A DNA stretch of 50,777 bases from an uncultured Candidatus Saccharibacteria bacterium (GTDB lineage Bacteria > Patescibacteriota > Saccharimonadia > Saccharimonadales > Saccharimonadaceae), in assembly GCA_947304395.1 (NCBI GenBank), contig CAMZBA010000008.1:1-50777 (forward strand), read 5' to 3'. Below the pieces are notes generated by a model, which saw only the letters and a list, made by a program, of their open reading frames with translations, was not told the DNA's origin and ran no database searches. Shown piece by piece: positions 2,517 through 50,777 of the stretch. A program made the position numbers and the translations under genes. How positions within the stretch are numbered: the stretch's first letter is position 1; each line of letters opens with the position of its first letter.

Positions 2517-2537
2517 TCCTGGCGGAAGGGGTGAGAT
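2493..2537. repeat. 45-bp direct repeat, copy 2 (native tRNA-Ser end)
   Basis: This is the partner of 2325-2369. It spans the native 3' end of tRNA-Ser and its terminator. Confidence 0.9.
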
Positions 2538-2608
2538 TCGAACTCACGGTGGCTATTAACCACGCCGGTTTTCAAGACCGGTGCCTTAAACCACTCGGCC
2601 ACCCTTCC
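2520..2608 (-). tRNA. tRNA-Ser (UGA)
   Basis: An 89-nt class II tRNA on the minus strand with acceptor GGAAGGG, anticodon TGA in the loop CTTGAAA, a long variable arm, T-arm GTTCGAATC and an encoded CCA. An extended -10 (TGATATAAT, 2619-2627) ends only 10 nt before the mature 5' end, so the precursor leader is about 3 nt. Confidence 0.95.
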
Positions 2609-5550: not shown

Positions 5551-6275
5551 TGCTTGAAACAATTACCATCTTTGACGATGATGGGGTTGCAGATAAAACT
5601 CAATCCCATCGCGTAACAGACATTAAAGAAGCGGTTCGCGACCGCAATCGGGTTAATGTATACATAGACGACAAATATTATTGTTCGTTAGATATTTCTC
5701 AGGTCGTTGATCTAGGCATCAAAATTGGCCGCAAGCTAAATTTCGAGCAGCTAGAAGACATAAAACGTGCTTCAGAGTTTGGCAAATTTTACGCCCGCGC
5801 ACTCGAATATGTCCTAATGCGACCGCATTCGACTAAAGAAATTAACGACTATTTAAGGCGTAAAACTCTCAGCAAAAAAATACGTACAAAAAATCCAAAG
5901 ACAGGCGAGTATAAGGATACGGTTCGGAGTGGCTATGATCCGAGCCTAATTCCGCTTGTTCTAGAGCGGCTAGACCAGCACGGACATTTGGACGATCGTC
6001 GTTTTGCGGAGTTATGGGTTGAGAACCGCGACGTCAAAAAAGGGACTAGCTTTAAAAAGCTCCGAGATGAGCTAGCGAGGAAGGGTATTAGTCAAAAAAT
6101 TATAGATGACGTATTGTGCAGTAATATGCGCAATGAGCGCGAAGAATTGCGTAAAGTTATTGCGCGCAAGTCCAACCGCTACGCTGACCGACAAAAACTA
6201 ATTCAATATTTAATACGCCAAGGCTTTACTTATTCCGATATTTTGGACGAGCTATCTTCATCCGAAGGTGCGTAG
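5550..6275 (+). CDS. recX: Regulatory protein RecX
   Basis: RecX binds RecA filaments and limits their activity. The 241-residue protein has a beta-rich N-terminal segment (about 30-70) and then three-helix RecX repeats; a typical first repeat starts ALEYVLMRPHSTKEINDYLRRK-like at about 90 and a second has LDDRRFAELWVENR near 150. It follows recA with a 1-nt overlap, the standard arrangement. Its last 46 bp overlap the convergent PRC-barrel gene tail to tail. Confidence 0.93.
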   Translation: MLETITIFDDDGVADKTQSHRVTDIKEAVRDRNRVNVYIDDKYYCSLDISQVVDLGIKIGRKLNFEQLEDIKRASEFGKFYARALEYVLMRPHSTKEINDYLRRKTLSKKIRTKNPKTGEYKDTVRSGYDPSLIPLVLERLDQHGHLDDRRFAELWVENRDVKKGTSFKKLRDELARKGISQKIIDDVLCSNMRNEREELRKVIARKSNRYADRQKLIQYLIRQGFTYSDILDELSSSEGA

Positions 6276-6850
6276 CCAGGTTTTCTAAAGGGATTAACAA
6301 AATTAGGGACAAACTCTTCTTGGGCGATTTCCTTTTTCTTTTTAACTTTAACCTTGGAATCACCGTGTTTAATTGTAATCTTAAAATCGTCAATTTCGAC
6401 AATCTGTGAACGGTTTATGGTCAATTGAGGATCAAAAAACGAAGACGTAATTGGTCGCTGTACGATTAGTTGATATATGATAAAACTACCAGAATCAACG
6501 GTATAATCGACAACTTTCCCGAGTTTTTTGCCTTTCTGGTCTACTACTTTCAAGCCGACTAGATTGAATTCCAGCGACATGATTTCGTCAAATTTTATTA
6601 CATCCTCACGCTTTGTAAAAACGTCGGCAGAGTTGACGATTAGGCCTTGGTCGCTGATTTCGCGCACATCGTTCATGTCGAGAATATTTCCAATCTCGTT
6701 ATCGTTATGAATTATTGCGCCATCAACTACGTAGGCAATGATTTTCAGATTATCTGGGTCAATGATTGCTCTAGTAGTACGGGCAATTTCGCCACCGATA
6801 TGGAGGCTTAAAACGGGAAAGTCAATCAAGTTTGAACCAACCATTAACAT
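6230..6850 (-). CDS. PRC-barrel domain protein
   Basis: A 206-residue cytoplasmic protein with two PRC-barrel-like halves: residues 1-80 (IDFPVLSLHIGGEIARTTRAIID pattern) and about 85-150 (GLKVVDQKGKKLGKVVDYTVD). PRC barrels occur in RimM and in photosystem H subunits as protein- or RNA-binding modules, and the specific partner here is unknown. The C-terminus is Lys-rich then acidic. A longer frame reaches back to 6952, but I chose the ATG at 6850 because GGAGAG precedes it and because the extended -10 TGCTACAAT at 6878-6886 would lie inside the longer version. Confidence 0.75.
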   Translation of the reverse strand: MLMVGSNLIDFPVLSLHIGGEIARTTRAIIDPDNLKIIAYVVDGAIIHNDNEIGNILDMNDVREISDQGLIVNSADVFTKREDVIKFDEIMSLEFNLVGLKVVDQKGKKLGKVVDYTVDSGSFIIYQLIVQRPITSSFFDPQLTINRSQIVEIDDFKITIKHGDSKVKVKKKKEIAQEEFVPNFVNPFRKPGYAPSDEDSSSKISE

Positions 6851-6870
6851 TTTCTTTTTCTCTCCGCTTA

Positions 6871-6886
6871 TGGAATAATTGTAGCA
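6871..6886. promoter_or_regulatory. Interlocked divergent -10 boxes for tilS (+) and the PRC-barrel gene (-)
   Basis: Plus strand TGGAATAAT (6871-6879) precedes the tilS ATG by 8 nt. Minus strand TGCTACAAT (6878-6886) serves the PRC gene. The two boxes overlap by 2 bp, so one RNA polymerase should exclude the other. Confidence 0.5.
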
Positions 6887-6887
6887 C

Positions 6888-7724
6888 ATGAAAAAGGTTT
6901 TAGCGGTCTCTGGCGGTATTGACTCGGTTGTGATGCTGCATATTTTTCGCAATGATTCAGAGGTGGTCGTAGCGCATTATAATCACGGCATTCGTCCCAA
7001 TTCGGCAGACGATCAGGCTTTCGTCAAGCGACTCGCTCAAAAATACAAGCTCCCATTTGAAACTACGGATGGAAACTTGGGGCCGAATACTTCAGAGGCG
7101 GCTGCTCGGGAGGCCCGATACCAGTTTTTTGAAGCAATCTGCAAAAAGCACGGAGGTCGTCTTCATGTTGCGCATCATCTCGATGACGTTTATGAATCGA
7201 TCGCAATCAATGTCTTAAGGGGGACAGGATGGCGTGGACTTGCACCATTACGTAATCCTAATGTGGAGCGACCCCTGTTAGGATGGCGAAAAAGCGATAT
7301 TTATCGCTACGCAACCGAACATCAACTTAACTTTCGCCAGGATCAAACTAATAATGAAGATATTTATTTGAGGAATCGAGTCCGCGTGGCTTTATTGCGT
7401 GCAAGTGATGTCCAAAAAGAACAGCTCCGTCAACTATATGAGCGTCAATGCCAAATATCGTCTGAGGTACAAAAAATTTTGGATTGTTTTGTCTCGGAGC
7501 AGGGGCGATCCATTTCGCGCGATATTTTTATAGATATTGATGAGCAATCTGGCGTTGAGCTGTTGCGCGAATTATTGTCAATAAACGGCATTTCGCAGAC
7601 GCGCCCGCAACTACATCGCGCGCTTTCGGCGATTAAGAACTATCTTCCCGGAAAGCAATTTCCGCTAAATAAAAACAAATATATCAGAGTATCTAAATAT
7701 CATTTTTCTATCAAAAGTAATTAA
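6888..7724 (+). CDS. tilS: tRNA(Ile)-lysidine synthase
   Basis: TilS adds lysine to C34 of tRNA-Ile(CAU), changing its amino-acid identity from Met to Ile and its decoding from AUG to AUA; it is essential in most bacteria. The PP-loop motif SGGIDS is at residues 8-13, followed by AHYNHGIRPNSADD and HHLDDVYESIAINVLRGTG, typical of the N-terminal catalytic domain. At 278 residues it is a short form that lacks most of the C-terminal tRNA-binding domain of the roughly 430-residue enzymes. There is no Shine-Dalgarno site; the ATG is 8 nt after an extended -10, so the mRNA is probably leaderless. Confidence 0.93.
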   Translation: MKKVLAVSGGIDSVVMLHIFRNDSEVVVAHYNHGIRPNSADDQAFVKRLAQKYKLPFETTDGNLGPNTSEAAAREARYQFFEAICKKHGGRLHVAHHLDDVYESIAINVLRGTGWRGLAPLRNPNVERPLLGWRKSDIYRYATEHQLNFRQDQTNNEDIYLRNRVRVALLRASDVQKEQLRQLYERQCQISSEVQKILDCFVSEQGRSISRDIFIDIDEQSGVELLRELLSINGISQTRPQLHRALSAIKNYLPGKQFPLNKNKYIRVSKYHFSIKSN

Positions 7725-17953: not shown

Positions 17954-18054
17954 TATTCTAATGTGACATTATAAGAACGTTATTCTTTATACTTTTTGAT
18001 TGTCGTAAAACGTTTTCTAAAAACAAAAAATCCCATTTTTTGCCAATGATAATG

Positions 18055-18060
18055 TATAAT
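18055..18060 (+). promoter_or_regulatory. -10 box of the minor pilin operon
   Basis: A perfect TATAAT ends 6 nt before the ATG at 18067 and lies within a longer potential frame, so it favours 18067 as a leaderless start. Confidence 0.55.
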
Positions 18061-18066
18061 ATGCTT

Positions 18067-19107
18067 ATGGATAAAAATAAGGGAGCATTTCTTAGGGGCT
18101 TCACTATTATTGAAGTTATGCTTTTTCTGGCGCTAAGCGGCGTTTTGCTAGCGGGCATATTGGGTGGCCTTGGAGGGAATATAGCAAGACAACGTTATAA
18201 TGATGCCGTCCAGGATATAGCCAACATGATGCGTGATCAGTATTCATTCGTATCCGATACGCAGATTGCACAACGCAACAAGGAAGATTCATATTGTTAT
18301 GGTTTAGTTCAAAGTGATGTTAATAGCGATGACGCCAAGTCGTACTTTAGGTCACTTAATAGTTCTAGCGCAGATAATAAAATCGCATATCGCGGTCGCA
18401 CCAACTGCGTAATCTATGGAGCGGTCGTGTCTATTACGGAAAAATATATAGAGACAACGGAGCTAATTGGCCGCGATTATAAAACCATAGTTAAACAACG
18501 CGAGGGTACGGATAATCCAGTTAGAAGCGATTTGTCGGATATAGAGATTTTGAAAGATGTCGTTAGCGCAAACAATGTAGCACTCCATTGCAATCTCGAC
18601 GATTCAGAAGACTGCTATGTGCGCTCTGCGGATAATTCCCGTACGCAAAACACGAAATGGGGTACGAGACTACTTGATCCAGAAGGTGAACCGATTCGTA
18701 AGACTTTAATGATTATCCGCTCGCCTCGTGATGGCTCAATTCGCACTTATGTATGGAATGATGGAATTAAGGGTGGCTTGACTGGTCTAGAATACGTTCG
18801 TTACGAGGAGCTAAACGCAATGAATGGTGGTAAAGGTCAAAAATTTAACGTAGGGCATCCGTTAGATAGCTACGGCATCAATCGCCACCTGACGGACGCT
18901 AATTTCAAAATTCAAGCACTTGATATTTGTGTCGATTCCGGCGACTCACAAACTTATAGCAATGCGCGCCGACTCATTAAAATCAAAAAAGCCGGTATGG
19001 GGCAAAGTGCTGTAGAATTGATGAATCTAGATGCCGAAAGGGAAATAAGCGAAGGTGGCGTCGATTATAGTAGCGATGCTACGTTGGGGGTAGCCGAATG
19101 TCAATAA
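18067..19107 (+). CDS. Type IV pilus minor pilin, GspH/FimU-like position
   Basis: 346 residues. A class III prepilin signal is clear: a short basic leader ending in Gly11, then FTIIEVMLFLALSG with Glu at +5, followed by the hydrophobic stalk helix. The remainder is a large, polar, Cys-containing globular head with no recognised domain. It is the first gene of a four-pilin operon. An alternative start at TTG 18040 would place the promoter inside the gene and give an overlong leader. The prepilin peptidase and assembly ATPase must lie elsewhere. Confidence 0.85.
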   Translation: MDKNKGAFLRGFTIIEVMLFLALSGVLLAGILGGLGGNIARQRYNDAVQDIANMMRDQYSFVSDTQIAQRNKEDSYCYGLVQSDVNSDDAKSYFRSLNSSSADNKIAYRGRTNCVIYGAVVSITEKYIETTELIGRDYKTIVKQREGTDNPVRSDLSDIEILKDVVSANNVALHCNLDDSEDCYVRSADNSRTQNTKWGTRLLDPEGEPIRKTLMIIRSPRDGSIRTYVWNDGIKGGLTGLEYVRYEELNAMNGGKGQKFNVGHPLDSYGINRHLTDANFKIQALDICVDSGDSQTYSNARRLIKIKKAGMGQSAVELMNLDAEREISEGGVDYSSDATLGVAECQ

Positions 19108-19931
19108 AAAAGCATGGCGATACTATTATTGAAGTTATGATGGCCTTGGCAGTATTTGCTGTTTTGGCAATTATTACGGTAAATCTCATGAACAGTGGCA
19201 TTAATAATGCTCAACGTACTCTAGAGTATACTATGGCGCGCAACGAGATCGACTCGCAGGCCGAAGCACTTCGCTACATTCACCAGAGTTATGTTGCGGA
19301 ACGCCAGTTGGATAGAAGCAACAGCCAATTTAGAAGATTGTGGGATGCGCTGCGCAGGGTTGCAATTAAATCAAGGAACCTTGAAGACCACGCTAATAAT
19401 AACACTGAGGTAAAATTCGATATCAACAATATCGAAACTTGCGGGGAAGCGTACCAAACGAACGGCATGGTTGAGTTCTATAATGCTTTTGCGCTAAATA
19501 CGCGCATGATTCTGCCAGACTCTGGCAACAATGCTACATATGGCGGCGACACTTATGCCAATCTTATTCCAGAAATTATCGTTGGTATAGATTCTCTTGA
19601 TATCAACAGTAGGAGGGTTCTTACCGCTCCGGTCGTGTATCCGCGTATTGTGTACAAAAAGGCTAAAGATACCGTTTCGGGCACGCGTGGCGTAGATGCG
19701 GGCGCCAGCGAAAATAATGATGAAGGCGCTCTCGCTGAGAAGCAAATATATAATCGCATAGCTCGCGCTGAAGGCGTCTTTGTGATAGCCGTAGGAGATA
19801 ACGACAAAGACCCAATGCGCTCAAACTACTTCGATTTCTATATACGCACCTGTTGGCATAGTGTTGGCTCAATTGCGCCGAGTACGATTACTACAATTGT
19901 ACGCTTATACAACCCGGAGGTATTGGAATAA
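19098..19931 (+). CDS. Type IV pilus minor pilin, GspI/PilV-like position
   Basis: 277 residues. The leader MSIKKHG precedes DTIIEVMMALAVFAVLAIITV, giving Glu at +5; the +1 residue is Asp and not the usual Phe or Met. The start overlaps the previous pilin by 10 bp. The head domain is unrecognised and has two Cys that could form a disulfide. Together with its neighbours it probably forms the tip or priming complex of the pilus. Confidence 0.82.
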   Translation: MSIKKHGDTIIEVMMALAVFAVLAIITVNLMNSGINNAQRTLEYTMARNEIDSQAEALRYIHQSYVAERQLDRSNSQFRRLWDALRRVAIKSRNLEDHANNNTEVKFDINNIETCGEAYQTNGMVEFYNAFALNTRMILPDSGNNATYGGDTYANLIPEIIVGIDSLDINSRRVLTAPVVYPRIVYKKAKDTVSGTRGVDAGASENNDEGALAEKQIYNRIARAEGVFVIAVGDNDKDPMRSNYFDFYIRTCWHSVGSIAPSTITTIVRLYNPEVLE

Positions 19932-20797
19932 TGAAAAAGCATAAGAAAGCCTTCACTGTTATTGAATTCTTGCTTGCAATGACGGTATTGTCGGTAATGT
20001 TGATGGGTATTGTCACGTTAACGATGCGAATCTTGGAAATCTATCGTAAAGGTCTTGCTCTTCGTGCCATTAATGCTACTGGGCGAGACATCTTAAATGA
20101 CCTTTCGCGTTCTGTTGGCGGATCTCCAATCGTCGAGAATATTAACCCAGTTCCATCATCTGGCAGTAACGATATCCGTTGGTATGATATCAAGAAAGTT
20201 TATCGCAATTACTACAATGAAAAGATATCGTCTTCCGGCGTAACCAACAATAAGAAAGTCCAAATCGGTGGCGTCTTCTGTACAGGGTCATATTCATATG
20301 TTTGGAATACCGCCCCAGCTATCGAACAATACCGCAAAAACCCGGACAATAAAAACAACCTGTTTACTATTGAGGGTAAAGTGTACAAACTTGCGCGTTT
20401 CCCAGATACTGATCGTGTAGCTTGTGAGCGCATCGATGCGAATAGTGATGATCTTAAAACTACGCACATTACAAATGATATCGATAGTAGAGATGTAGTA
20501 AGCCTGATTTCCGACGACGAATCCGACCTGGCGCTTTACGACTTTGTAGTGTTGCCTGCTACACAAAACGCGAAAACTGGTCAAATATTTTACTCCGGAT
20601 CGTTTATTCTGGCGACCATGCGTGGCGGTGTTAATGTTTTGACGAATGGAGATTATTGCACTGGTACGGAACAAATGTATAACTCCGAGGTAGAAGCGGT
20701 TGATCAAGATTTTAATTATTGTGCAGTTAATAAATTTAATTTTGCGGTACGCGCCACGGGGGAGACGAGTAACGTGGACCAATATGGAGAGAGGTAA
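19931..20797 (+). CDS. Type IV pilus minor pilin, GspJ/PilW-like position
   Basis: 288 residues. MKKHKKA followed by FTVIEFLLAMTVLSVMLMGI is a prepilin signal with Ala instead of Gly at -1 and Glu at +5. PilW/GspJ proteins often occupy this third position. Its ATG follows GGAGGT and overlaps the previous stop by one base (TAATG). Head function unknown; it contains several Cys. Confidence 0.82.
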   Translation: MKKHKKAFTVIEFLLAMTVLSVMLMGIVTLTMRILEIYRKGLALRAINATGRDILNDLSRSVGGSPIVENINPVPSSGSNDIRWYDIKKVYRNYYNEKISSSGVTNNKKVQIGGVFCTGSYSYVWNTAPAIEQYRKNPDNKNNLFTIEGKVYKLARFPDTDRVACERIDANSDDLKTTHITNDIDSRDVVSLISDDESDLALYDFVVLPATQNAKTGQIFYSGSFILATMRGGVNVLTNGDYCTGTEQMYNSEVEAVDQDFNYCAVNKFNFAVRATGETSNVDQYGER

Positions 20798-20798
20798 C

Positions 20799-22313
20799 AT
20801 GTCGAATATTCAAAACAAAACTAAAAAAGGCGCTGCCGCGATCTATGTCGTCATTTTTACGGCAACTCTTTTGAGCATTATTGCACTTAGCTTTATTCGA
20901 TTGATGCTATCTGAGAGTGGGCGTACAACCAACTATAGTCTTTCTCAGTCAGCCTACAACTCCGCACTAGCTGGCATCGAGGATGCAAAGATTGTTCTGC
21001 TTCGTTATCAAAACTGCGTCAACAACGGTGGCAATTCGCTTGTAGTGAATGGCGCATCTATTGACTGTACAAAGTATGTTGAAGCTTTTACTAATAATGC
21101 CGAAGAAACCTCTCAAGATTGTGACATTATTAGCAAGGTTCTTGGCTATAACACAGAAAACCACGAAACGCTAATTCAGACAAAGAGTGACAGTAATAAC
21201 GTTACTGGCTCCGCAAGAGAATTTGACCAGGCATATACCTGCGTCAAAATATCCCAGAAGAGCAGGAATTATATCACTACTCTAACGAAGAATTATCCAA
21301 CCAAGATGGTACCGATTCGTACCGAATCGGCAGAGGCTACTAACAGCGTAAATCGCATTGTGTTGAGCTGGTTTAGCCGCAAGGATCTTACTACTGCAAG
21401 CAATAACTCTGGTGACATTAAGCCCGAATTTCATCCATTTAATAGCGATCCGGAGATGAAAGGCGCTCTAAAGACAAACAATAGTTTCCTGAGTAATATT
21501 CCAGATTATCAAAACACTTTCACGAATAAGCCATCAGTGCCGTCAACGATTCAGGCTACCTTGATCCAAACGGCGACGAGCTTTAAACTGAGTCAGTTCT
21601 ATTCTGCCGAGAAAGATGGTAGTATCTATCGTTCTAATAGGGGCTCAATCACGCTTCGTCCGACTACTCAAAATCTTTATGGTATCACAAAAGAACAATA
21701 CTCCAACCACATTGGCACAACTTCAACCTCTGTCTTTGCGACATCGGCCCTAAAGTCACAGAACACCCCGCTTGATGTGCATTGTATTCTTCGAGATAAT
21801 GTAGATGTCGCAAGTGGATATGCTTGTAATGCGGATATTCCAATCCCACGTCCTCGCAAATCGGTTGTCGCTGGTGAGGGTGACGCGCGTAACTACACGA
21901 CTTTCTTCTTAGTTTTAAATCTGCCGTATGGTGAGCCAGAAACTGAAGTTAATGTCGAGCTACGTAACTGTATAAGAGATTCTGATACGATATATGTAGA
22001 CAGGAAGGACACCGATGATTCCGGCTGTAAAGCAGTAGAGTTTGCTTACGTGCAGCCAACTGTGGACGCTACTGGTCGCGCAAACGACTTATTCCGTCGC
22101 ATAGAAGCTCGCATTGAGCTAGTCGATACCTACTTCCCAATTGCTAACTATGCCTTAGCGGTGAATGATCCTGATAATAACGAAGACTACGTGAAGAAAG
22201 ATTTCTATGTGACTCGCAGCTGCCTCCGCAGCGAGACTACCTGGGATAGCACTACGCAAGCTGTTACCTATACGAATGGAGCGTCTTGCAGAAACGCCGC
22301 TGATCGCTCATAA
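20799..22313 (+). CDS. PilX/GspK-like minor pilin
   Basis: 504 residues, the largest of the four. The N-terminus has a basic leader (KTKKG) and then AAAIYVVIFTATLLSIIALSF, which lacks the Glu at +5. GspK-type tip pilins also lack this Glu, and they also come fourth in the H-I-J-K order. The rest is a Ser/Thr/Asn-rich extracellular region with scattered Cys. A longer frame begins at 20700 inside the preceding gene; ATG 20799 is chosen for the GAGAGAGG site before it and because the leader then fits. A terminator follows directly. Confidence 0.78.
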   Translation: MSNIQNKTKKGAAAIYVVIFTATLLSIIALSFIRLMLSESGRTTNYSLSQSAYNSALAGIEDAKIVLLRYQNCVNNGGNSLVVNGASIDCTKYVEAFTNNAEETSQDCDIISKVLGYNTENHETLIQTKSDSNNVTGSAREFDQAYTCVKISQKSRNYITTLTKNYPTKMVPIRTESAEATNSVNRIVLSWFSRKDLTTASNNSGDIKPEFHPFNSDPEMKGALKTNNSFLSNIPDYQNTFTNKPSVPSTIQATLIQTATSFKLSQFYSAEKDGSIYRSNRGSITLRPTTQNLYGITKEQYSNHIGTTSTSVFATSALKSQNTPLDVHCILRDNVDVASGYACNADIPIPRPRKSVVAGEGDARNYTTFFLVLNLPYGEPETEVNVELRNCIRDSDTIYVDRKDTDDSGCKAVEFAYVQPTVDATGRANDLFRRIEARIELVDTYFPIANYALAVNDPDNNEDYVKKDFYVTRSCLRSETTWDSTTQAVTYTNGASCRNAADRS

Positions 22314-45667: not shown

Positions 45668-45733
45668 ATTTTTGCGCCGATTACTGTGAAAATGGTAATT
45701 ATAAACATGCTTTACACGCGCCACAAAGTCCTG

Positions 45734-45741
45734 TAAAATTA
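45734..45741 (+). promoter_or_regulatory. Probable -10 of the pilus operon
   Basis: TGTAAAAT lies about 52 nt before the adhesin ATG, leaving a leader of about 45 nt with the ribosome site TTGGGAG. Confidence 0.4.
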
Positions 45742-45793: not shown

Positions 45794-47314
45794 ATGGTTT
45801 TCGCGAGAGCAGTGATAACCGCAATAAAGAAGAAACTCACAAGCCTATTCTTTGTTTCCGCAATCATCCTTGCGGCAACGGCTTTTAACTTTAATGCGGT
45901 TTTTGCACGTACGGGTATGGATATATCCGTGGAGGTGAATTGGACCGATCAAAGCGTTAGTACTCGTCCAGCAAGCGTAACTTTACGCCTAAAGAGAGAT
46001 AGTTGTAGTGGCACAGAAACTGCAAATATTACGCTTACATCGGCAGATGTGGACCCATCAGATAACAACAAATGGGTTGGTGTTTTTGTGAATGTACCTC
46101 GTTATGTTAATTATTATGTTTGCCAGGATAACGTAACTGGGTACAACACCGAAACAGACCACGCCGTCGACTACTATCTTGAACCAGAGTTGATAGGTCA
46201 AGTTCATACCGGTACCGTGAGTTATAGTACGCAGACTCTTGGCGAGTATAATTTTATCCTTATTAGAAATAATAATAATTATTACCTGTGGACATATGAA
46301 TTCATCAATTCATCAACAAGTCGTAACCAAATAATCGCCTTGCTTAGACAAGCGTTGGGAAATAATAACATTTCAATCGGCAGTAACAAGGATAATTATT
46401 CGTACGGCTTACCGACAAGTACAACTTTAAGCAATACTACTATTTCTGGCTCAGAAACGAACGTCACATTTAGGGGCTCCAATATTACTGGCTTTTGGTA
46501 TGGAAATATAGCAAGATCGAGGGCTGATTTAGTATCACTCGCTAATACTTTAAATGCTACTACGTATAATGTTTCTTATTCTTTCACTGGTGCTGTGCAG
46601 CCGCCGAATGCAAGTTCACTTTTACCGTCAACTGCCAGCTATACGCCTGGCGCAACTGTAACGGTCGCTCAAGAACCAACCGCTACGGGCTATCGTTTCT
46701 TGGGGTGGACCATGAACGGTTCAAGCATAAGCGGGACCTTTACGATGCCATCAAATGATGTTACCATAAGCGGTAGTTGGGAGCAGTTCAACGGGTATTT
46801 TGCACCGAGCATTTCAAAGCAAATTACGAATCCGCAAAATGTGTATCGTTACGGTGATACGGTAGAATTTTTGGTTGTCGTCAGCAATCCCGAATCCTAT
46901 CCAATTACTAACGTTGAAGTGACGGAAAATCTAGTCGGAACTAGATTTTTGCCCGCCTCAGGTTATACGGTTTCAGGCACCGGCGATGTGGCAACTATTG
47001 CTACGATTCCGGCTAATGGCATAGTAGTGCTTTATGCGGAATATGATATCGCTCAAGACGTCACGCAAACTCTCACTAATACCGCCGAGATTACGGCGGC
47101 TAGTGCAAGTAATTTTTATTATCTCGATACATCTCAAAGTTATATCGCCAGCGCTCAGTTTGCGACCCAAAGCTGGCAAGACGTCCCGGTCTTGACCGGG
47201 GTAAACACCAATAGCACAATACTCTATTCTATCTTAATGCTCTTCGGAGCAATAGGCATAGGAGGCGGGAGTATTGTGACTTATAAGCAAAAAATAAAAG
47301 AAAGGGAGAAATGA
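45794..47314 (+). CDS. Secreted, sortase-anchored adhesin-like surface protein (SHIRT and DUF11-like domains)
   Basis: 506 residues. A signal peptide (1-38, ending in NAVFA) is followed by beta-rich domains. About 255-330 matches a SHIRT/InlB-B-type repeat (YSFTGAVQPP, GYRFLGWTMNGS, FTMPSNDVTISGSW). About 335-430 resembles a DUF11-like domain (SKQITNPQNVYRYGDTVEF, ITNVEVTENL). The C-terminus has the layout of a cell-wall sorting signal: PVLTG at 465-469, a hydrophobic helix (about 474-496) and a basic tail KQKIKEREK. It leads the pilin-SipA-sortase operon and overlaps the pilin start by ATGA, which suits a pilus tip adhesin or ancillary protein. Confidence 0.8.
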   Translation: MVFARAVITAIKKKLTSLFFVSAIILAATAFNFNAVFARTGMDISVEVNWTDQSVSTRPASVTLRLKRDSCSGTETANITLTSADVDPSDNNKWVGVFVNVPRYVNYYVCQDNVTGYNTETDHAVDYYLEPELIGQVHTGTVSYSTQTLGEYNFILIRNNNNYYLWTYEFINSSTSRNQIIALLRQALGNNNISIGSNKDNYSYGLPTSTTLSNTTISGSETNVTFRGSNITGFWYGNIARSRADLVSLANTLNATTYNVSYSFTGAVQPPNASSLLPSTASYTPGATVTVAQEPTATGYRFLGWTMNGSSISGTFTMPSNDVTISGSWEQFNGYFAPSISKQITNPQNVYRYGDTVEFLVVVSNPESYPITNVEVTENLVGTRFLPASGYTVSGTGDVATIATIPANGIVVLYAEYDIAQDVTQTLTNTAEITAASASNFYYLDTSQSYIASAQFATQSWQDVPVLTGVNTNSTILYSILMLFGAIGIGGGSIVTYKQKIKEREK

Positions 47315-48387
47315 AAAAACTTTCATTCACCGCTGGCGTAGCTGCTATCGCTCTAGCAGTTGCGAGCATCTTTCCAGCGGCTGGCGTATTTGCCAACACA
47401 GTAGCAACAACGGATTACGAAGGTAACCCAATTGTCCTGCGCAGGACAATCAATAATGTTTCAGGTAATGTGACCAATACCTTTGGTTACACTGTCTCAA
47501 ACACGGCGGTACCAAGTGGCGGTAGCGTTAGCGGTGCGCCAACTTCGGCCAGCATTGTTTTCAGTAATGCCGCACCAACAAGTGGTTCCGTCACACAAAC
47601 GCAAAACTTGGGCTTCTCATCTGCCAACTATTCAAAGGTAGGTGATTACGAATTCACTATTACTGAGACCAGTTCTAGTGATTCAGCCAACTATCCAGTT
47701 GATAGCACTCATAGCTACACTGCTGTCGTGCAAGTTCGCTATCCAGTTGATGGCAACAACGTGCCAGACAACAGTAAGTTTATCGCTACTATCACCGTAT
47801 GGAATGGCGATACTAAGGTAACTGAAGCTACTTGGACTAGCGCTTCAACTTACACCTATATTCAGGCAACTGAAAAGACTACCGGTAACATGGCTGATGC
47901 CTCACTATGTTTCGCCTACACTATTGATATTCCAAATAGTGGCGTTACTGCCGGCGGTACTTATGCTATCGATATCAACCCAACCTCTGGTGCATGTTCT
48001 GGTAGCGCAACCAGCGTTGCTGCCGGTGCTCCAGCCACGGTTTACCTCAAGAACGGTGATACTGTCCGCGTAGGTTACAACAGCGGTGCATATCAGCTTC
48101 CAGTTGGTGCCCAATATACTATTACAAAGACAAATCACAGCGACGATTATATCGAAAAATTTGACGGTTCAAGTGCTACCGATACAACTAAAACTACAGT
48201 AGCGATTGGTGATGACGATTTCGATACCGATAACAAAACCGCTCTTGAAAACAACTTAGATGAGGGCCTCTTAACTGGTATCGTAACCAACTTCTGGTTC
48301 TACATCATGCTTCTAGTTGCCGGCTTAATTGGCTTCTTCATTGTTAGCCGCCGCAAACAAGACGACGAAGAACAGCAACAAGCTTAA
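47311..48387 (+). CDS. FctA/Spy0128-like isopeptide pilin, probable major shaft subunit
   Basis: 358 residues. A signal peptide (1-28, ending in GVFA) is followed by two beta-sandwich domains. The first has FGYTVSN, GDYEFTITETSSS, YPVDSTHSYTAVVQVRYPVD, the strand order and GxYxFTITE motif of the FctA pilin isopeptide family. The second (about 190-300) has CFAYTIDIP and GAQYTITKTN, with a candidate Cys pair. The sorting-like C-terminus is LLTG at 320-323, a helix, then SRRKQ. Known FctA pilins form internal Lys-Asn bonds and are polymerised by a class B sortase; the bond partners here need a model. GAAAGGGAG gives a good ribosome site. Confidence 0.82.
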   Translation: MKKLSFTAGVAAIALAVASIFPAAGVFANTVATTDYEGNPIVLRRTINNVSGNVTNTFGYTVSNTAVPSGGSVSGAPTSASIVFSNAAPTSGSVTQTQNLGFSSANYSKVGDYEFTITETSSSDSANYPVDSTHSYTAVVQVRYPVDGNNVPDNSKFIATITVWNGDTKVTEATWTSASTYTYIQATEKTTGNMADASLCFAYTIDIPNSGVTAGGTYAIDINPTSGACSGSATSVAAGAPATVYLKNGDTVRVGYNSGAYQLPVGAQYTITKTNHSDDYIEKFDGSSATDTTKTTVAIGDDDFDTDNKTALENNLDEGLLTGIVTNFWFYIMLLVAGLIGFFIVSRRKQDDEEQQQA

Positions 48388-48400
48388 ATAACAATCAAAA

Positions 48401-48916
48401 ATGAATAAAACGAAAGCTTTTCTTAAGAAACACCATAAATGGATTCGACTATTTGTGAAGATAGCCGTTATGGTCGCATTCCTGTGGTTTCTATTTGGGG
48501 TACTGATTGGCTTTCGACGGGTAGAAGGCGTATCTATGTCTCATCGTGTAGAAGACGGTGATCTCGTCCTATTCTCCCGGACGGATAAGACATATTATCC
48601 AGACGATGTCGTGTTGTACGAGCGCGAAGGTAAAACACGCGTCTCGTCGATACTTGCCTCCCCGGGTGACATTATCACCCTAGACGAAGTCGGGCGCCTG
48701 TATGTCAATGGCGCACGGGTGTCCGATACTGCCGTCTATAACATAGATCAAGGCGAAACGCCAACGATTACTTTTCCGGCACGCGTACCGGATGGGGGTT
48801 ACTTCTTACTAAACGAAAATCTCGAAGATTTGGATGATTCGCGCAGCTTCGGGGCAATTTTCGCAGAACAAATCAAAGGAAAAATTGTGAGTATTTTCCG
48901 CACAAGGTCAATCTAA
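48401..48916 (+). CDS. SipA-like signal-peptidase-fold protein, catalytic Lys missing
   Basis: 171 residues with an N-terminal transmembrane helix (about 15-38) and a signal peptidase I fold: VEGVSMSHRVEDGD with Ser45 at the nucleophile position, ASPGD (86-90), and LNENLEDLDDSRSFG matching the LepB box E. The general-base Lys, eight residues before the ASPGD Asp, is Ser82. Streptococcal SipA, required for FctA pilus polymerisation, also lacks the catalytic dyad, so this is probably a pilus assembly chaperone and not a leader peptidase. It sits between pilin and sortase, as SipA does. Confidence 0.8.
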   Translation: MNKTKAFLKKHHKWIRLFVKIAVMVAFLWFLFGVLIGFRRVEGVSMSHRVEDGDLVLFSRTDKTYYPDDVVLYEREGKTRVSSILASPGDIITLDEVGRLYVNGARVSDTAVYNIDQGETPTITFPARVPDGGYFLLNENLEDLDDSRSFGAIFAEQIKGKIVSIFRTRSI

Positions 48917-48917
48917 A

Positions 48918-49655
48918 ATGAAAAAAACTGCAGACAAAATAAGGGAATATATAGAGAACGTCGTCAATATGCTCTCAGCGGCGCTCTTCCTGCTTCTCTT
49001 CGTGATTGGCCTCTACGCTCTCTTAGATATCCACGCCGTAACCGTTAGCGCCAGAATGGACGAAGAAATGCAAAATATGGCACCTGATGATGTCCAAGAG
49101 GTAGATATCGCAGAATTAAAGAAAGTCAATCCAGAAATCATTGCCTGGATTCATATTAATAACACAAAAATCAATTACCCAGTCGTACAGGCCAAGAATA
49201 ATACGAAGTACCTTACTCGAAACTATCGTGGTGAATACGCTACTGCCGGAAGCATCTTTTTGGACTATCGCAACAACAGCTTCAATGACGACTTCTCGCT
49301 AGTCTACGGGCACCGTATGGATGGCTTCGATATGTTTGGTGGCATATCGTTATTTGAGGAAAAGGACTATTTCGATCAGCACCCAGCTGGTAAGCTCTAT
49401 ACCGAAGAGGGTATTTATGATTTGGAAATATCAGATTTCTCAGTCATAGATATCAATCGTGCTTCAATCTATAATCACGACGATAACCGCAATGGCCAAA
49501 ATGATAAAGTTATCAGTGAAGTGCGCCTATTCTCAAAACAAAACCGCGACATAGAAATGGATAAAAATAGCAAAATAATCGTTCTTTCTACTTGCGACAA
49601 AGACTCGCGTCACTATCGCAATGTTCTACTCGCCAAAATGACTAAACGCGATTAA
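48918..49655 (+). CDS. Class B sortase, probable pilin polymerase
   Basis: 245 residues. One N-terminal transmembrane helix (about 18-40) and the sortase barrel with NPEIIAWIHINNTKINYPVV and GSIFLDYRNN, typical of class B. Catalytic residues: His132 (YGHRMDG), Cys226 (VLSTCDKD) and Arg234 (HYRNVLL). Class B pilin sortases polymerise FctA-type pilins in streptococci. Two sorting-signal proteins in the same operon are the natural substrates. It follows the SipA-like gene by 1 bp and ends the operon. Confidence 0.9.
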   Translation: MKKTADKIREYIENVVNMLSAALFLLLFVIGLYALLDIHAVTVSARMDEEMQNMAPDDVQEVDIAELKKVNPEIIAWIHINNTKINYPVVQAKNNTKYLTRNYRGEYATAGSIFLDYRNNSFNDDFSLVYGHRMDGFDMFGGISLFEEKDYFDQHPAGKLYTEEGIYDLEISDFSVIDINRASIYNHDDNRNGQNDKVISEVRLFSKQNRDIEMDKNSKIIVLSTCDKDSRHYRNVLLAKMTKRD

Positions 49656-49758
49656 GATATCAAATCTTTGACGTGCGCCTTTGTCGTATTGCGACTTTTT
49701 ACTAAACGAATTTATTCCAGCGTGCAATGTAATTAGCCAAACGCAGCCCTCTCTGCAC

Positions 49759-49787
49759 TTGACAAAACATAACGCTTGTGCTATAAT
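49759..49787 (+). promoter_or_regulatory. Consensus sigma-70 promoter
   Basis: A perfect TTGACA, a 17-bp spacer and a perfect TATAAT, the strongest promoter seen in the window. Initiation near 49794 gives a leader of about 43 nt with AAGGAGGGG. Confidence 0.85.
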
Positions 49788-49836: not shown

Positions 49837-50472
49837 ATGAGTAAGAAGATACTGTCGTTAATCGTAGCTGTTGCCATTCTGGCCGTTATTACTTTGGCGG
49901 TTTCAGTGTACGGGACTGCATTGCCATACGAAAACGTGGCAGCCGAGGCGCTCTCGGACTTCGACTTCAAGGAGCTGGAGGCCGATTACGTACACGTCGG
50001 CGTCTATTATGAGGCCACCGATGGGTTCGTAGCGGGGACCTCGATGAGCACTTATGACGAAGTCGACTTTCAGGAGTGGTCCAGAGATGAATGGGGGCGC
50101 TGGATCGGGAGCAAGGCACAAGCCAGCGTCGGCGACCGCCGCGAGGTCGCTCGAGTCCGATCGGTCTACGTCTTCTTCTCAATCGGCGGCATTTGCGGCG
50201 AGTCGTACAAGGTAGAGGTAGTCGACGTCAAAAACGGCGGCGACTTCGATCGTCTAATTAGATACCAGCCGAACTTGGCTGAAGCTAGACTCAGCCACGA
50301 GCAGGCGGAACGGATCAGCGGCACGGCGACTACCGTCCAGTTAGCTAAGCAGATTCCTGAGAAGAGCTACTCGGCGGTGAGGTCCGATCTTTCCGAATGT
50401 ATCGACCATGGGGGCGTTATAACATTCATGGTTAATGGGTGCCCCATACAGTTTCGGCTGCAGTGTCCTTAA
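49837..50472 (+). CDS. Orphan secreted or membrane-anchored protein, GC-rich, strong promoter
   Basis: No family recognised. 211 residues with an N-terminal signal or anchor helix (about 4-26, ILSLIVAVAILAVITLAVSV) and a polar exported domain with three or four Cys (GICGESY, LSECIDHGG, NGCPIQF, QCP at the end), compatible with disulfides. It has a perfect promoter, a near-perfect ribosome site (AAGGAGGGG) and a strong terminator, so expression should be high. Codon use is much GC-richer than the pilus genes just upstream, suggesting acquisition. The start at 49837 is fixed by the ribosome site. Confidence 0.75.
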   Translation: MSKKILSLIVAVAILAVITLAVSVYGTALPYENVAAEALSDFDFKELEADYVHVGVYYEATDGFVAGTSMSTYDEVDFQEWSRDEWGRWIGSKAQASVGDRREVARVRSVYVFFSIGGICGESYKVEVVDVKNGGDFDRLIRYQPNLAEARLSHEQAERISGTATTVQLAKQIPEKSYSAVRSDLSECIDHGGVITFMVNGCPIQFRLQCP

Positions 50473-50489
50473 TATGGCGCATGATCATT

Positions 50490-50531
50490 CCCCGGCCAAC
50501 CACGCCTCTGCGTGGAAGGCCGGGGCTTTTT
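50490..50531 (+). terminator. Terminator of the GC-rich orphan gene
   Basis: CCCCGGCC/GGCCGGGG encloses a second stem (CCACG/CGTGG) and is followed by CTTTTT. Confidence 0.88.
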
Positions 50532-50607
50532 GTAGCGTAAAACCACCAGCTAGGCTGGTGGTTCTGTTTGTAGCGTAAAACCACCAGCTAGGCTGGTGGT
50601 TCTGTTT
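50532..50607 (+). repeat. Two tandem 38-bp units, each with an IS200-type hairpin
   Basis: Units 50532-50569 and 50570-50607 are identical. Each has AACCACCAGC-TAG-GCTGGTGGTT, a 10-bp stem with a 3-nt loop. This is the probable left-end hairpin of the IS200 element, duplicated. Confidence 0.85.
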
Positions 50608-50626
50608 AGGTTTACCGATGAGTCAG

Positions 50627-50692
50627 AAAACTCCTTTTTGTTATGCTTTTCGTATAGCCTGTCAGCTAGATAAACATACAAAAAGGAGTTTT
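50627..50692 (+). promoter_or_regulatory. Ribosome-site-sequestering hairpin of tnpA
   Basis: AAAACTCCTTTTTGT (50627-50641) is the perfect complement of ACAAAAAGGAGTTTT (50678-50692), a 15-bp stem whose 3' arm contains the AAGGAG ribosome site directly before the ATG. IS200 tnpA is known to be translationally repressed by such a leader hairpin. Confidence 0.8.
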
Positions 50693-50777
50693 ATGTCCGT
50701 TAACGATATAAATAGTTTAAGTCATACGAAGTGGAATTGTAAATATCACCTAGTTTTTGCGCCGAAATATCGGCGCC
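50693..50777 (+). CDS. tnpA: IS200/IS605-family Y1 transposase TnpA, 5' part
   Basis: Only the first 28 codons lie in the window. HTKWNCKYHLVFAPKYRR near the N-terminus is the diagnostic start of IS200-type TnpA (Y1 HUH single-strand transposases, about 150 residues). The HUH and Tyr motifs are outside the window. The ATG directly follows the sequestering hairpin. Confidence 0.92.
   Translation, partial: MSVNDINSLSHTKWNCKYHLVFAPKYRR

Follow-up and report, generated by a model that had tools for sequence, protein, structure and literature searches.

The window analysed here, a stretch of 50,777 nucleotides from a rumen Saccharibacterium, carries at positions 45794-49655 a compact operon encoding a surface adhesin, a pilin, a SipA-like protein and a class B sortase. 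The original prediction of four tightly packed genes in a Patescibacterium holds: the four open reading frames (ORFs) lie on the same strand at the stated coordinates, none has an internal stop, the adhesin and pilin genes share 4 bases, the SipA-like gene begins after a gap of 13 bases, and the sortase gene after a gap of a single base. On account of this spacing, the four genes likely form a single transcription unit. The contig belongs to a genome of 1.02 Mb that is 96% complete. The nearest records are 'Candidatus Saccharibacteria' genomes from yak and sheep rumen, and isolate RGIG10081 encodes a sortase 95% identical to that of the window. The bacterium is probably host-dependent. The features of the locus are as follows.

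45711..45739, forward strand: promoter-like site 5' of the operon (agrees with the consensus at 10 of 12 bases; from a consensus scan only, such sites being near chance frequency)
45794..47314, forward strand: surface adhesin, 506 aa, with a signal peptide, Cna_B-like, InlB B-repeat and DUF11-like regions and a C-terminal sorting signal (profiles)
47189..47203, forward strand: adhesin sorting motif VLTGV, preceding a membrane helix and a basic tail (sequence; invariant in locus L039)
47311..48387, forward strand: shaft pilin, 358 aa, two domains, FctA/PitB fold (DUF7601, predicted structure, PDB matches)
47815..47817, forward strand: Lys169, predicted acceptor lysine for sortase linkage (invariant in 46/46, aligned with the FctA-type lysine)
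47908..47997, forward strand: Cys200-Cys229 codon stretch, predicted second-domain disulfide replacing an isopeptide bond (alignment)
48268..48279, forward strand: pilin sorting motif LLTG, ahead of the C-terminal membrane helix (sequence)
48401..48916, forward strand: SipA-like pseudo-signal-peptidase, 171 aa, with Ser45 retained and the general-base Lys replaced by Ser82 (profiles, alignment)
48918..49655, forward strand: class B sortase, 245 aa, His132/Cys226/Arg234 (family profile, alignment with solved sortases)
49683..49695, forward strand: small terminator-like hairpin with a T run 3' of the sortase gene (consensus scan only, near chance frequency)

The pilin, the SipA-like protein and the sortase

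The pilin matches DUF7601 (E=2.2e-8), and sequence comparison places the T13 backbone pilin (E=0.016) first among its solved relatives. A structure model built from a four-sequence alignment is confident for the N-terminal domain (predicted local distance difference test (pLDDT) about 85) and of moderate confidence for the C-terminal domain. Its best PDB match is FctA, the major pilin of group A streptococci (3gle_B; 3gle/3b2m), with a Z-score of 13.5 and an r.m.s.d. (root mean square deviation) of 3.5 over 235 residues. The next PDB matches are other T-antigens, the pneumococcal/oral PitB of pilus islet 2 (PI-2) and FctB, and other immunoglobulin-like folds score about 6 or less. Lys169 is invariant in all 46 pilins of the genus and aligns with the T13 lysine located 7 residues ahead of the isopeptide Asn, a spacing identical to that of Lys161 and Asn168 in Spy0128, in which Lys161 forms the inter-subunit link of the pilus (PMC3019223, PMC7900414). 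Fold, family profiles, linking lysine and conserved gene order together uphold the reading of a class B sortase pilus with an FctA-like pilin. Like the adhesin (VLTG), the pilin (LLTG) ends in a sorting motif, a membrane helix and a charged tail.

The same protein had been described as an isopeptide pilin, which our alignment contradicts, as neither domain contains the Lys-Glu-Asn triad. The N-domain positions are occupied by Arg45/Glu119/Ser177, and the triad is complete there in 0/46 pilins; the C-domain positions hold Glu188/Lys273/Asn314, and 12 of the 46 relatives have the complete triad, the Lys being always accompanied by Glu and Asn among pilins of the genus. Absence of the triad had been named in advance as a refutation of the pilus. 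It is indeed absent, but we consider this the wrong test, because sortase polymerisation relies on the acceptor lysine and C-terminal motif of the pilin and not on intramolecular bonds.

Thirteen pilins, including that of the window, have cysteines at both positions 200 and 229, and the triad is found in none of them. This lack of overlap (p about 0.009 on raw counts) is only suggestive of mutual exclusion because the pilin sequences are related. A disulfide may thus substitute for the isopeptide bond in the second domain. The window genome encodes three thioredoxin_4 proteins (DsbA/MdbA-type), and MdbA-type disulfide catalysts are enriched in candidate phyla radiation (CPR) bacteria (PMC6744442). 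With isopeptide and cysteine versions of one domain, this pilin family should be useful for studying how covalent stabilisation is swapped during evolution.

The SipA-like protein matches Pfam S26 (E=1.4e-18) and the NCBI signal peptidase I model (E=4e-26), and among solved structures streptococcal SipA (4n31) is the nearest to it (E=5e-19). Its relatives were aligned against the active SpsB, which provided the dyad positions. The general-base Lys is absent from every full-length relative. Members of the window clade have Ser at this site and keep the nucleophile Ser45, so that only the Lys half of the Ser-Lys dyad of type I signal peptidase has been lost; outside this clade, the nucleophile is replaced in many relatives by Ala, Val, Gly or Asn. 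Streptococcal SipA, which has Asp and Gly at the dyad sites, is inactive and essential for polymerisation (PMC4049620). The relationship to 4n31 and the loss of the Lys support the predicted SipA-like identity.

The fourth gene was correctly recognized as a class B sortase. It scores above the cut-off of TIGR03064 (E=1.4e-52, 178 bits), and its catalytic His132, Cys226 and Arg234 align with those of solved class B sortases. Among these solved relatives, 3psq, the streptococcal pilus sortase Spy0129, ranks second (PMC3019223). The window genome encodes five sortases, four of them of class B.

Sortase loci across the genus and in-frame UGA codons

Class B sortases are present in 35 of the 37 sampled genomes of the genus, many in several copies, and in 0 of 24 genomes that represent the order's other families. 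A class-wide survey of 393 genomes returned 41 with a class B sortase match, all but one weak fragment falling in three genera of one family. Phylum-wide, 7 of 380 genomes gave matches, with one strong one from outside the Saccharibacterial family. Our literature search for sortase pili in Saccharibacteria, whose coverage is incomplete, returned only general mentions of CPR sortases.

Three kinds of locus occur in the genus. An orphan class B sortase is found about once per genome in nearly every congener; a core locus consists of a 540-aa membrane protein, a pilin, a short protein and a sortase; and accessory operons such as that of the window make up the third kind. The full order adhesin-pilin-SipA-sortase recurs in seven genomes besides that of the window. 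A tree built from 101 sortases sets the orphans clearly apart and groups the window sortase with those of other accessory operons, but does not settle the deeper branches or the position of the streptococcal enzyme. An iterated SipA profile recruited about 12 of the short core-locus proteins (about 100 aa), which are SipA remnants at best because they lack the relevant region and align poorly. Assignment of the 540-aa neighbour as a glycosyltransferase was rejected, its Pfam match being below the cut-off.

In seven genomes (G000, G031, G005, G001, G020, G021 and G007), the core sortase contains one in-frame UGA and the core pilin another, the latter at codon about 39, directly after the signal peptide. 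The core locus of G001 is split across two contigs.

L041 (G000:C5:38000-54000), 5622-7697; also L044-L049 and L169: UGA-bearing core pilin and sortase (seven genomes)

The sortase UGA falls on one of two Trp sites, in the motifs IAW or DWxIY. Among the relatives compared with L047, the IAW Trp is near-invariant (W 39 times, UGA 4 times); the DWxIY Trp is Trp in L047 and L049 and other residues in most remoter relatives. At the position of the pilin UGA, relatives that lack the codon have a residue other than Trp. Additional single cases at sortase Trp positions occur in L052 (G015), L050 (G016), L051 (G017) and L167 (G018), and a UGA at about codon 10 is common to L050, L150 and L153. Since UGA sortases occupy at least five places on the tree, the codon apparently arose several times in separate events. 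A sequencing error could in principle account for a UGA seen in one genome only, but hardly for the case that recurs in seven genomes.

No TAA or TAG interrupts the UGA-bearing core pilin and sortase frames, and the ratio of non-synonymous to synonymous substitution rates (dN/dS) 3' of the pilin UGA is 0.06-0.24 where estimable, indicative of purifying selection. This pattern suggests that the core-locus UGA undergoes read-through. RF2 is encoded in the window genome, where UGA serves as a stop codon and ends 8 of the 47 window ORFs. None of the tRNAs found is a suppressor with a UCA anticodon, and both tRNA-Trp have CCA and a normal D-stem. These two tRNA-Trp genes of G000, L067 (G000:C16) and L068 (G000:C21), differ by one base; most other tRNAs are single, and most congeners show one tRNA-Trp. 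Candidate tRNA-Sec genes were rejected because they score like ordinary tRNA-Ser (the best G000 match is the tRNA-Ser at window positions 2520-2608), and they provide no evidence for selenocysteine.

A whole-set scan for UGA opposite Trp was dominated by antisense frames and was redone on selected genes. Among the 886 genes compared, no other family has UGA opposite a conserved Trp in a convincing sense frame; by eye, the remaining rows are mostly antisense frames, upstream regions and short shadow frames. None of the four genes of the window operon contains an in-frame UGA. Our best guess is that leaky read-through by tRNA-Trp holds pilus production at a low or conditional level. Bacterial genes with conserved in-frame stops and signs of purifying selection have been described before, and a lowering of expression has been proposed as the role of such stops (PMC7918605). 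If decoded, the core-locus UGA would be a case of gene-specific recoding.

The adhesin, other surface proteins and neighbouring genes

In the adhesin, the Cna_B (residues 44-121) and InlB B-repeat (279-331) matches exceed the Pfam cut-offs, and its C-terminus reads VPVLTGV followed by a membrane helix. Of the two domains originally predicted, DUF11 is matched (340-437), but below the cut-off, and the Pfam scan returned no SHIRT match. Pfam likewise gave no match to a thioester domain, as found in Cpa-type tip adhesins, and the structure model of the adhesin is too poor to consult on this point. The gene at the same place in L039 encodes a protein 61% identical to the adhesin, with a big mid-protein insertion and a C-terminal part that is near identical, as would be expected if a rapidly changing binding region sat on a conserved stalk.

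Surface proteins some 1,560 aa long are encoded near pilus loci in L041 (7700-12388, reverse strand) and L039 (10608-15305, reverse strand); the former has VWA, SHIRT, DUF11 and DUF285 repeats and its L039 counterpart ends in a membrane helix. They are possible additional sortase substrates.

Type IV pili had been proposed at 18067-22313. Three successive short prepilin-like proteins with weak N-methylation motifs are indeed encoded at 18040-20794 on the forward strand, near RNase Y, and the proposed region contains one further protein, which has no match; neither an ATPase nor a PilC gene was found among the genes scanned. The three are rather minor pilins or pseudopilins than a full type IV pilus locus.

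The gene 3' of the operon (49837-50472, forward strand) encodes a predicted exported protein of 211 aa that has no Pfam match above the cut-off and looks unrelated; it has its own perfect sigma-70-type promoter (TTGACA-17-TATAAT at 49759). Positions 50525-50777 (forward strand) contain two copies of the hairpin repeat AACCACCAGCTAGGCTGGTGGTT, then KYHLVFAPKYRR, the beginning of an IS200-like transposase frame that the contig end truncates at the 3' edge of the window.

A putative covalent pilus and its known counterparts

The FctA-like fold, the invariant Lys169 and the loss of the catalytic Lys in the SipA-like relatives make it very likely that the operon encodes a SipA-dependent class B pilus whose subunits the sortase joins covalently, as in FCT-2/3/4 and PI-2. 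The adhesin and pilin would be exported by Sec and retained in the membrane via their C-terminal helices, after which the sortase, through Cys226, would cleave each at its LTG motif and couple the threonine of one pilin to Lys169 in the following one, yielding a shaft with the adhesin at its tip. The SipA-like protein, its peptidase chemistry lost, is probably needed for pilin presentation, as in streptococci. The second-domain disulfide, and not Lys-Asn isopeptide bonds, would stabilise the shaft, and the orphan class B sortase may perform anchoring. Several observations weigh against this assignment: the operon lacks a basal pilin, the sorting motif is a hydrophobic residue plus LTG, unlike the streptococcal (E/Q/V)(V/P)PTG, the second pilin domain is modelled with moderate confidence only, the adhesin model (pLDDT 42) was too poor to be used, and VKOR to reoxidise the disulfide catalyst was not found in the window genome.

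We consider it improbable that the sortase anchors both surface proteins singly to the cell wall, like classical SrtB, and forms no polymer. Solved class B sortases that anchor proteins to the wall do score only a little below the solved pilus sortase, and the orphan sortases of the genus group with wall-anchoring class B enzymes. The pilus sortases nevertheless group apart from the orphans on the tree, the pilin model has a shaft-pilin fold, and the lysine at the acceptor position is invariant across 46 otherwise very divergent pilins; moreover, a dead SipA alongside is a feature of polymerising class B systems (PMC7900414). The SipA-like protein might also be an active signal peptidase that cleaves the pilin leader, with Ser45 as nucleophile and an atypical base. 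This would be compatible with a covalent pilus, and we regard it as equally unlikely: retention of Ser45 in the window clade and the signal peptidase I match agree with it, but the general-base Lys is Ser82 here and other residues in all full-length relatives, many of which lose Ser45 too, and the best solved relative is an inactive SipA. A decaying, functionless horizontal acquisition would fit the patchy distribution, missing from most Patescibacteria, and the transposase fragment at the contig end; with four open frames, catalytic residues retained, gene order recurring across several species and class B sortases in nearly all congeners, often multi-copy, it is very improbable.

The covalent pilus could plausibly serve in holding or recognising the host cell, although this is a guess. 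A main open question about Saccharibacteria is by what means they recognise and hold their hosts; the type IV pilus is the surface device already known from them. A covalent pilus, encoded in several copies in genomes of about 1 Mb, is a concrete testable candidate for host holding, and the fast-changing adhesins are candidate host-range factors. More tentatively, and with greater doubt than confidence, we propose that rumen Saccharibacteria depend on covalent class B sortase pili throughout the lineage, with swappable accessory operons and a core locus in which pilin and sortase are each gated by a single in-frame UGA that is decoded as an amino acid (in the sortase, tryptophan), UGA being otherwise a stop.

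Within the genus, the core locus shares a related pilin and sortase and the identical invariant lysine with the window operon, from which it differs by a short SipA remnant at best and by in-frame UGA codons in many species. Pilus islet 2 of pneumococci and oral streptococci comprises PitA, SipA, PitB and SrtG. The window operon resembles it as a short operon with two surface proteins, SipA and a sortase, and PitB is the next fold match after FctA; its motif and isopeptide bonds differ as they do from FCT, and the window has a single sortase. A match in gene content and order had been drawn with FCT islands; the four parts do correspond, but the gene content is not identical, a basal pilin and a regulator being absent here. 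Group A streptococcal FCT-2/3/4 (Cpa, FctA, SipA/LepA, SrtC1/Spy0129) shares the class B pilus sortase, the inactive SipA, a two-domain FctA-fold pilin with the acceptor Lys near the end of the N-domain, and an adhesin in the same operon. In contrast, the window operon has neither an FctB basal pilin nor a regulator, its adhesin is unlike Cpa, its pilin has a Cys pair instead of the isopeptide triad, its LTG motif is without Pro, and its SipA-like protein keeps Ser and loses Lys where streptococcal SipA has Asp and Gly. The polymerisation parts and residues are thus known ones, and what is new is the altered pilin stabilisation, the altered sorting motif and the Saccharibacterial carrier lineage.

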